Positions 10,300 through 40,776 of a stretch of DNA of 64,000 bases are shown one piece after another. The notes under the pieces were generated by a model that made no database searches, was not told the DNA's origin, and saw only the letters and a program-made list of their open reading frames with translations. The translations under genes were made by a program, and so were the position numbers. This DNA comes from Phenylobacterium sp. (GTDB lineage: Bacteria > Pseudomonadota > Alphaproteobacteria > Caulobacterales > Caulobacteraceae). The stretch is from the NCBI RefSeq assembly GCF_020253645.1, contig NZ_JADCBG010000066.1, forward strand, positions 1 through 64,000, written 5' to 3'. The first letter of the stretch is position 1, and each line of letters begins with the position of its first letter.

Positions 10300-10384
10300 G
10301 CGGTCGTGGCGGAATTGGTAGACGCGCAGCGTTGAGGTCGCTGTGGGGCAACCCGTGGAAGTTCGAGTCTTCTCGACCGCACCA
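10300..10384 (+). tRNA. tRNA-Leu (anticodon GAG)
   Basis: Acceptor arms GCGGTCG and CGACCGC pair perfectly and the CCA end is encoded (10382-10384). The anticodon stem CAGCG/CGCTG encloses the loop TTGAGGT, giving anticodon GAG for CUC/CUU codons. GGTTCGA-type T arm reads GTTCGAGTC, and a long variable arm is present, as expected for class II tRNA-Leu. Confidence 0.96.
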
Positions 10385-13099: not shown

Positions 13100-13774
13100 C
13101 TATGGCTCGACGACGGATAGGGTCATGCCGTCCCAACCCTTCTCGCCCACCGTCTGCAGGACGGTGGAGAACAGGCGCGGCTCTCGCCCGAGGGTCTCGG
13201 TGAACGTCCGGACTCCGCGGACCCGGTCGTCGTCGGAGTTCACCTCCAAGACCGCGCCGCCGCGAACCACATTGTCGCCAATGATGAGGCCGCCGGGCCG
13301 GGTCAGCTTCAGCGCCCAGTCCAGGTAGGCCGGATTGTTCGGCTTGTCGGCGTCGATGAACACCAGGTCGAAGGCGGGGCCGCCTTCCCGGACCAGGCGG
13401 GCGAGGGTGTCGAGTGCGGGGCCGACGCAGATCTCCACCCGGTCGCCAAGCCCGGCCTGGTCCAGGTTCCGCCGCGCAAGTGCGGCGTAGTCCGGCGAGG
13501 CCTCCAGCGAAATCACCCGGCCTTCGGGCGGCAGGGCCTCAGCCATCCAGCTGGCCGAGACGCCGCCGAGGGTTCCGATCTCCAGAATTCGGCGTGCGCC
13601 TATGGCCTTGACCAGGAGGGAGAGAAATCGGCCCTGCAGGGGCGACACATCGTGGGGGGGAAGGCCTGCCGCGGTGTTCGCCTCCCGAATCCGGGCTCTC
13701 AGGGGATCTGCTCCAACGAGCGCCTTGACGAAGTAGGCGTCCACCGACACCCAATCCTGGCCTTCAGCCGTCAT
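13100..13774 (-). CDS. O-methyltransferase, caffeoyl-CoA/catechol type
   Basis: 224 residues of a class I SAM-dependent methyltransferase. ILEIGTLGGVSASWMAEAL is the SAM-binding motif I, VISLEASPDYAALARRNL the acidic ribose-binding strand, and LVFIDADKPNNPAYLDWAL the metal-binding Asp region of COMT-like enzymes; IIGDNVVRGG follows. The methyl acceptor is unknown. GGAGG lies seven bases before the ATG. It is preceded by an unusual leader with a 20-codon ORF and a hairpin, described separately, and converges with isovaleryl-CoA dehydrogenase. Confidence 0.9.
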   Translation of the reverse strand: MTAEGQDWVSVDAYFVKALVGADPLRARIREANTAAGLPPHDVSPLQGRFLSLLVKAIGARRILEIGTLGGVSASWMAEALPPEGRVISLEASPDYAALARRNLDQAGLGDRVEICVGPALDTLARLVREGGPAFDLVFIDADKPNNPAYLDWALKLTRPGGLIIGDNVVRGGAVLEVNSDDDRVRGVRTFTETLGREPRLFSTVLQTVGEKGWDGMTLSVVEP

Positions 13775-13832
13775 TTCCGGTCCTCCGCATCATCTCGGGG
13801 GCGCTGCCCACTCCGGGGCGCCTGAACGAAAC

Positions 13833-13858
13833 GGGCGGCCTGGTTTCCCGAGCCGCCC
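13833..13858 (-). terminator. Hairpin in the O-methyltransferase leader, possible attenuator
   Basis: On the minus strand GGGCGGC and GCCGCCC form a 7-bp perfect stem around a 12-base loop, followed by GTTTCGTTC. It lies about 50 bases after the stop of the small leader ORF and 58 bases before the O-methyltransferase start. The T-run is weak, so it may be an attenuator, a processing site or a plain terminator for the small transcript. Confidence 0.4.
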
Positions 13859-13907
13859 TGCACCGATCGTGGAAGTCAAAGCTTCGCACAAAGGCGATGG
13901 GAGATTG

Positions 13908-13970
13908 CTACCGCGCAAGCGCGGAGGTCATCAATCCAGCAGCGACTTCCGAGTGATAACGGTGAGACAC
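13908..13970 (-). CDS. 20-residue leader ORF with an extreme Shine-Dalgarno sequence
   Basis: GTG start at 13970 and TAG stop at 13910-13908 encode MSHRYHSEVAAGLMTSALAR, too short for the ORF track. GGAGG is seven bases upstream, the ideal distance. The protein has no membrane segment, no run of a single amino acid and no family I recognise. It lies 133 bases upstream of the O-methyltransferase in the same direction and within its probable leader. It could be a regulatory leader peptide or an independent small protein; translation is strongly suggested by the ribosome binding site but not proven. Confidence 0.6.
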   Translation of the reverse strand: MSHRYHSEVAAGLMTSALAR

Positions 13971-13971
13971 T

Positions 13972-13986
13972 GGATCACCTCCTTTC
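13972..13986 (-). promoter_or_regulatory. 15-base Shine-Dalgarno fully complementary to the 16S rRNA tail
   Basis: The minus strand reads GAAAGGAGGTGATCC, which is the exact complement of the conserved bacterial 16S 3' end GGATCACCTCCTTTC. Ordinary genes in this window pair with four to six bases. The match ends one base before the GTG of the small leader ORF. Confidence 0.75.
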
Positions 13987-14052
13987 AATGGTTGGCCAAG
14001 GCGGCCAGCCTGCGCCTGCTTCGCCGGTCCTGACAAGACGGGCCGGGTCACG

Positions 14053-39333: not shown

Positions 39334-40776
39334 ATGCCGAGACCTGCAGCGTGGACAGTGGCGCTGGCCGCCCTGGTGCTTTCCTCGTGCGCGACCGCCT
39401 CCGGCGCGCCCCCCAAGGCCCGCCCCGGGGCCGCCGCGACCAAGGCCCTGCCTGCGGGGCTTGATCCGGTCGCCCGGCAGGACGCCTTTCCCTCCACCTA
39501 CAGGCCGCTTCCCTCTGCACCCTTCGCGATTACCGGCGCGCGCGCCTACACCGGGACCGGCGCGGCGCTGGAGAACGCCACGCTCATCGTCCGGAACGGA
39601 CGGATCGCCGCCATCGGGGAGGGGCTGCCGGTTCCCGCCGGCCTGGAGACCCTCGACGCCCGCGGCAGGTGGATCACCCCCGGCCTGATCGACGCCCACT
39701 CCCATCTCGGCGTCTACGCCGCCCCGGCCGTGCCCGCGCACTCGGACGGCAATGAGCTGACCGACCCGACCACGCCCGAAGTCTGGGCCGAACACTCGAT
39801 CTGGCCGCAGGATCCCGGCTTCAACACCGCCCGGATCGGCGGGGTCACCACGGTCCAGATCTTGCCGGGATCGGGCAACCTGATCGGCGGGCGGGGAGTC
39901 ACCCTCAGGAACGTGCCCGCCCGGACCATGCAGGAGATGAAGTTCCCCGGGGCGCCCTACACCCTGAAGATGGCCTGCGGCGAGAACCCCAAGCGGGTCT
40001 ACGGCTCGCGCGGACGGGCGCCGTCCACCCGGATGGGCAATGTCGCGGGATACCGCGCCGCCTGGATCGAGGCGGCGGACTATGTGCGCAAGTGGGATGA
40101 CTACCGCGACAAGGTCTCCCGGGGTGAAAAGGCCGATCCGCCCCGCCGGGACCTCGGGCTCGACACGATGGCCGGGGTCCTGCGCGGCGAGATCCTGGTG
40201 CAGAACCACTGCTACCGGGCCGACGAGATGGCGATCATGATCGATATCGCCAAGGAGTTCGGATACCGGATCTCGAGCTTCCACCACGCCCTGGAAGCCT
40301 ACAAGATCGCCGACCTGCTGGCGCAGAACGGCATCTGCACCGCCACCTGGGCGGGGTGGTGGGGCGGCAAGATCGAAATGTACGACTCGATCGAGGCCAA
40401 TGTTCCCCTGCTTGAGGCCGCCGGGGCCTGCGGGGTCATCAAGTCGGACGACCCGGACCTGATCCAGCGCCTGAACCAGGAGGCGGCGATGGCGCTGGCG
40501 GCCGGCCGGGCCGCAGGCCTGGAGATCTCCGAGGCCGAGGCGATGCGGTGGATCACCTCCAATCCCGCCAGGGCGCTCGGGATCGCGGATCAGACCGGGT
40601 CCCTTGAGGTGGGGAAGCGTGCGGACATCGTGCTGTGGGACCGCAATCCCTTTTCCATCTATGCGCGGACCGAGACGGTCTTCATCGACGGGGCCATAGC
40701 CTGGGACCGTCGTGACGCGCGATACCAGCCGCGGTCCGACTTCGACCTTGGCCAGCCTGGCGAAGGAGCCCGCTGA
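39334..40776 (+). CDS. Amidohydrolase family lipoprotein
   Basis: 480 residues. The signal peptide carries a lipobox LSSC (Cys18). The catalytic domain has GLIDAHSHLG with the HxH metal pair, QNHCYRADEM and FHHALEAYK with further His ligands, and VIKSDDPDL with the Asp, then the closing GSLEVGKRADIVLWDRNPF. This is an intact imidazolonepropionase-like amidohydrolase. GGAGGGGGAG lies just upstream. The next gene overlaps by one base (TGATG) and is a paralogue. Confidence 0.9.
   Translation: MPRPAAWTVALAALVLSSCATASGAPPKARPGAAATKALPAGLDPVARQDAFPSTYRPLPSAPFAITGARAYTGTGAALENATLIVRNGRIAAIGEGLPVPAGLETLDARGRWITPGLIDAHSHLGVYAAPAVPAHSDGNELTDPTTPEVWAEHSIWPQDPGFNTARIGGVTTVQILPGSGNLIGGRGVTLRNVPARTMQEMKFPGAPYTLKMACGENPKRVYGSRGRAPSTRMGNVAGYRAAWIEAADYVRKWDDYRDKVSRGEKADPPRRDLGLDTMAGVLRGEILVQNHCYRADEMAIMIDIAKEFGYRISSFHHALEAYKIADLLAQNGICTATWAGWWGGKIEMYDSIEANVPLLEAAGACGVIKSDDPDLIQRLNQEAAMALAAGRAAGLEISEAEAMRWITSNPARALGIADQTGSLEVGKRADIVLWDRNPFSIYARTETVFIDGAIAWDRRDARYQPRSDFDLGQPGEGAR

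Follow-up and report, generated by a model that had tools for sequence, protein, structure and literature searches.

The mRNAs of type I toxins, among them hok and aapA1, contain a short ORF, a hairpin that masks the Shine-Dalgarno sequence (SD) in the nascent RNA, and a long-range pairing between the 5' and 3' regions. The dual-function sRNAs SgrS and RNAIII are stand-alone RNAs with a short ORF that encodes a functional peptide. No ORF is known to begin at the cry3A STAB-SD. The STAB-SD of cry3A (Agaisse and Lereclus 1996, as cited in PMC7509114) is described there as a near-complete complement of the 16S rRNA 3' tail near the RNA 5' end. In icaR mRNA, pairing between the 5' and 3' UTRs is reported to bear on translation (PMC3868564).

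RF01867 (CC2171) is an Rfam sRNA entry in which no ORF is recorded, and its consensus structure contains no pairing between an SD and an anti-SD. The name CC2171 suggests an origin among the sRNAs reported by Landt et al. 2008. Gene numbering, orientation and the arrangement of neighbours make CCNA_R0051 the probable RF01867 RNA of Caulobacter. This 209-nt RNA has its own promoter, lies between CCNA_02253 and CCNA_02254 in the orientation > > <, and was increased 4.4-fold with mitomycin, not specifically and in a comparison made with stationary phase (PMC6237742); a start site with the G1 pattern is also listed for it (PMC5988900). Neither a study of the function of RF01867 nor an RNA motif of this kind used in such a context turned up in our survey of the openly accessible literature.

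Here we describe a homolog of RF01867 in a 64,000-nt stretch of Phenylobacterium sp. DNA (the window). It is linked to RF01867 by a full-length model match, the same long-range helix, a terminator and the family neighbourhood, and differs from it in a sub-threshold score and in an ORF and an SD:anti-SD pairing that the Rfam entry lacks. Homology is claimed to RF01867 only, while in its predicted working the element appears somewhat similar to a STAB-SD, a type I toxin mRNA or a dual-function sRNA. Like a STAB-SD, it complements nearly all of the 16S tail close to the RNA 5' end, but it also has a start codon, an ORF of fixed length and a covarying anti-SD in cis. With type I toxin mRNAs it shares the short ORF, a predicted local masking of the SD in the nascent RNA and the long-range 5'/3' pairing, but its peptide is unconserved and its long-range helix leaves the SD outside. 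As in icaR, 5' and 3' parts of one transcript pair, although icaR is an ordinary protein mRNA and not a short stand-alone RNA. SgrS and RNAIII are likewise stand-alone RNAs with a short ORF, whereas the peptide here appears neutral.

Results

A cmscan search at a relaxed threshold matched window positions 13994-13832 to the whole RF01867 model (1-159) with 61.7 bits and an E-value of 1.8e-12, below the family's gathering cut-off of 75 bits. Because the score is formally under this threshold, we name the predicted small RNA gene (13832..13994, minus strand) a divergent ortholog of the family on the strength of sequence comparison. Despite a large change in sequence, the window copy keeps the RF01867 long-range helix, with CACCG/CGGTG in place of CATTG/CAATG, and the terminator, and it shares its locus with accepted members of the family. 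The RNA at the same locus in L050 scores 102.6 bits, and of 14 loci from the same genus, 11 score above the threshold. The statement in the initial annotation that no described system has this peptide thus needs qualification, since RF01867 is a homologous family; it stands insofar as our survey of the openly accessible literature met no account of the ORF.

Of 149 genomes in the window's taxonomic family, 120 have RF01867, and these cover 21 of 22 genera; among 289 genomes sampled from the class Alphaproteobacteria, 61 have it. By DNA search, 33 of the 35 genomes from the same genus contain the element, which argues against a chance occurrence. Most of these matches rest on a core of ~25 nt, and all homologs come from searches that this conserved core favours. 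Start, frame and motif, on whose conservation in close relatives the initial annotation had staked its reading, are conserved. Among the matches listed, the strict motif occurs in Brevundimonas, Methylobacterium, Bosea, Microvirga and Kaistia. The strict-motif matches listed also include a MAG labelled Ramlibacter (L149), which is not an alphaproteobacterium and is possibly mis-binned. A search for plasmid homologs returned none.

The element opens with an extended SD, the 15-mer GAAAGGAGGTGATCC (13972..13986, minus strand), which, as noted at the outset, is the complement of a 16S 3' tail; the real tail was read in G153, a member of the family (locus L093: AGAAAGGAGGTGATCCAGCCGC...). The 15-mer occurs once in the 2.87-Mb assembly, where ~0.005 occurrences are expected from length alone. 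A single A separates it from a GTG at 13970-13968, so that the spacing of seven bases first given for this site holds from the GGAGG core, but not from the end of the 15-mer, where the gap is one base. The GTG opens a predicted 20-codon ORF, MSHRYHSEVAAGLMTSALAR, that ends with a TAG stop at 13910-13908 (ORF 13908..13970, minus strand). Downstream, a terminator-like hairpin, GGGCGGC...GCCGCCC (13833..13858, minus strand), is followed by GTTTCGTT, a weak T-run; homologs have a GC stem of 12-17 bp and a T-rich tail at this position. Both the ORF and the hairpin of the initial annotation are real and conserved. An artefact of an rRNA gene on the opposite strand was rejected, as the match comprises the short tail only and Rfam detected no rRNA in the window. 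The sole RNA gene in the window above Rfam gathering scores is a tRNA-Leu (GAG) at 10300-10384 (plus strand). A two-mismatch match to the motif, ATTGGAGGTGATCC at 40550-40563 (minus strand), is at chance level.

An O-methyltransferase gene (13100..13774, minus strand) lies beyond the hairpin, outside the element. It starts at 13774 with its own GCGGAGGACCGGAA site ahead of the ATG, as previously annotated. Its position on the same strand, the ~60 nt from hairpin to ATG and the weak T-run would suit a translation-dependent attenuator or leader of this gene, one of the functions first proposed. However, comparison of loci revealed a different conserved order. In the window's family, the RNA lies between a same-strand patatin-like gene upstream and a convergent acyl-CoA dehydrogenase gene (gene names from sequence), and only in the window's subclade (L001, L003 and L004) is the O-methyltransferase gene found between the RNA and the acyl-CoA dehydrogenase gene. 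The closest canonical relative, L050 (97.9% identity for the acyl-CoA dehydrogenase, 92% for the patatin-like protein), carries the RNA but lacks the O-methyltransferase gene, and in other families the neighbours of the RNA differ. Because the gene follows the RNA in a small subclade only and is missing from this relative, and has its own ribosome binding site, the attenuator reading is unsupported and appears extremely unlikely. A leader of the O-methyltransferase was rejected on synteny, and on these comparisons the element is independent of that gene. A search for conserved linkage to a putatively regulated downstream gene failed, the O-methyltransferase gene being absent behind the RNA outside the subclade, and none common to the whole class was found; shared neighbours recur in small groups only. 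In the window's subclade, where the O-methyltransferase gene was inserted or kept, the RNA has also diverged sharply from that of L050.

Analysis of 90 distinct homologs revealed that the frame after the SD runs for 18-26 codons (mean 22.1, sd 1.6), against scattered stops in the other frames (sd 19-22). A further homolog reaches 27 codons, and such an ORF is absent from a few weak matches. With one sequence per family, the stop falls within this range in 24 of 24, against a shuffle null of ~0.14 each, although these sequences share ancestry and the product of the probabilities is not a true p-value. The start codons are GTG (73) and ATG (16), with no other, the stops are TAA (35), TGA (34) and TAG (20), and the GAAAGGAGGTG core of the SD and C19 are invariant in a 31-sequence alignment. 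The ORF bodies are only ~33% identical across families in ungapped comparison, the peptides are unconserved and not obviously hydrophobic, and no peptide conservation was found between distant families. In-frame pN/pS was 0.95-1.0 in three groups, values limited by short sequences and by RNA constraint overlapping the ORF. Because the length is conserved and the in-frame pN/pS is close to 1, we infer that the ORF is under selection for length, and that the peptide is apparently free of selection.

These results bear on the proposal that the locus is a small-protein gene, highly expressed in the initial annotation, with the 20-26 aa peptide as its product. The strong SD and the fixed start and length would agree with this, as would a W and an A-S pair that recur in many family-level peptides. 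A paralogous RNA subtype with CATTTGTC/GACAAATG arms also has a more similar peptide, SHLSI..ALE.SVK. However, the pN/pS of this subtype is 0.79, not clearly apart from that of its other frames, and the recurring W lies in the anti-SD described below, so RNA pairing can explain it. With a ratio near 1 in three groups and a peptide that is lost between distant families, a functional small protein seems very unlikely. The paralogous subtype was seen at L011, L221, L228, L229, L231, L234, L235 and L237; its 3' arm lies close behind the stop rather than beside the terminator, and at some loci ACCTCC follows the stop immediately. At L218, the 16S 3' end in the locus's own assembly (contig C56) reads GGCTGAATCACCTCC, not GGCTGGATCACCTCC, possibly from a contaminant contig in the bin.

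Two helices covary across the homologs, according to the alignments, and the window copy retains both despite its divergence. The first, present in the Rfam consensus, is a long-range helix between codons 3-5 and the stretch just ahead of the terminator. In the window, its 5' arm is CACCG with ATC (codons 3-6; 13955..13964, minus strand) and its 3' arm is GAT with CGGTG, directly ahead of the terminator (13861..13868, minus strand). The paired arms elsewhere include CATTGTC/GACAATG, CATAGT/ACTATG, CATGGTT/GACCATG and CGAGATC/GATCTCG. In the 31-sequence alignment, both sides change in 6 of 7 pairs, and the covariation score was reached in 0 of 500 shuffles and fell away when the helix was slid out of register. 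Matched arms had a pairing energy of −9.15 kcal/mol, against −5.47 kcal/mol for mismatched arms (0/5000).

The second helix, outside the Rfam consensus, pairs the 3' half of the SD with an anti-SD at about codons 12-18. In the window, this predicted anti-SD is the 16S-tail-like CTGGATTGATGACCTCC (13923..13939, minus strand), and its duplex with the SD is −18.5 kcal/mol (p about 0.01 against shuffles). SD variants GATCCAG, GATCCTG, GATCCCG and GATCCGA are matched by CTGGATC, CAGGATC, CGGGATC and CGGATC in the ORF, respectively. Both sides change in 5 of 6 pairs, with the score reached in 0 of 500 shuffles, and permutation gave 0/5000 across the class, or 43/5000 when each SD type was represented by a single sequence. 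The homologs are related, so the shuffle counts for either helix are not probabilities, and the covariation tests covered loci with a reliably placed terminator hairpin, leaving aside about 20. Caulobacter-type genera have a weak anti-SD or none; where the anti-SD is strong, a median of 14 nt separates its end from the stop.

Most canonical members were predicted to fold into a rod that leaves the SD on a freer 5' tail (z −5.3, −5.7), and forcing the SD:anti-SD pairing cost 0 to 17 kcal/mol in folding without pseudoknots. The window copy is an exception, with the SD closed, the long-range helix improbable and a z of only −1.6. These folds are relevant to a ribosome-protected or ribosome-capturing RNA, in which the long SD would hold a 30S subunit at the 5' end and either shield the RNA from decay, as a STAB-SD does, or titrate 30S subunits in slow growth, the ORF being incidental. 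The SD left on the freer tail in canonical folds is consistent with this, as is the duplex of the SD with the 16S tail, near −32 kcal/mol versus −12 to −21 kcal/mol for the cis pairing. The non-specific rise of the probable Caulobacter ortholog after mitomycin, in that comparison with stationary phase, also fits (PMC6237742). However, capture would leave both the conserved start codon, ORF length and stop and the covarying cis anti-SD unexplained, and we consider it rather unlikely.

Discussion

The conserved ORF length, the drifting peptide and the two helices suggest an RNA that probably responds to ribosomes rather than serving as the source of a useful protein. The best explanation, whose chances we put at roughly even, is a stand-alone, terminated sRNA whose conformation would be gated by ribosome loading and whose output would be the RNA itself. 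In this pathway, the local SD:anti-SD hairpin would form first in the nascent RNA, and the finished RNA would in most members adopt the rod, which the long-range helix closes and in which the SD is less constrained. The cis anti-SD and a 30S subunit would then compete for the SD, and an initiating ribosome would melt the long-range helix, cross the anti-SD and terminate just past it. Through this competition and melting, ribosome loading would set the conformation of the RNA, and hence its lifetime or its ability to pair in trans. Of the functions first proposed, a ribosome-sensing RNA thus survives in the form of a ribosome-dependent RNA, while the attenuator of the O-methyltransferase does not. 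Counting against the gated model are the weak or absent anti-SD of Caulobacter-type genera, the fold of the window copy with its closed SD and improbable long-range helix, and, as the chief caution, the general remark in a Caulobacter profiling paper that most intergenic ncRNAs are untranslated (PMC4117421).

An RNA in which translation has no role could also be envisaged. A trans-acting base-pairing sRNA or sponge might use GAAAGGAGGTG or the freed arms to pair with other RNAs, for example the CCUCC-motif sRNAs SisA-D, which bear UUUCCUCCCU and for which CrfA acts as a sponge in Caulobacter (PMC12559287), and Rfam classes RF01867 as an sRNA. However, the length and start codon of the ORF are conserved, and the Caulobacter RIL-seq and Hfq papers do not mention, in their main text, the genes flanking CCNA_R0051, by which we looked for it. 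We regard this alternative as unlikely.

A broader form of the ribosome-gated model is that an alphaproteobacteria-wide RNA acts as a sensor of ribosome availability. The SD would pair with the full 16S tail and the ORF would contain a mimic of that tail, translated only to displace the mimic, with the peptide discarded; free ribosomes would flip the RNA between two folds. We offer this as a tentative possibility. As far as the openly accessible literature goes, the ORF and the covarying anti-SD are undescribed. If the ORF is translated, an sRNA kept across much of the Alphaproteobacteria would offer a case, open to experiment, in which translation acts as a signal and not to make a product. 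The covarying SD and its mimic of the 16S tail in cis provide ready point mutants in laboratory Caulobacter.
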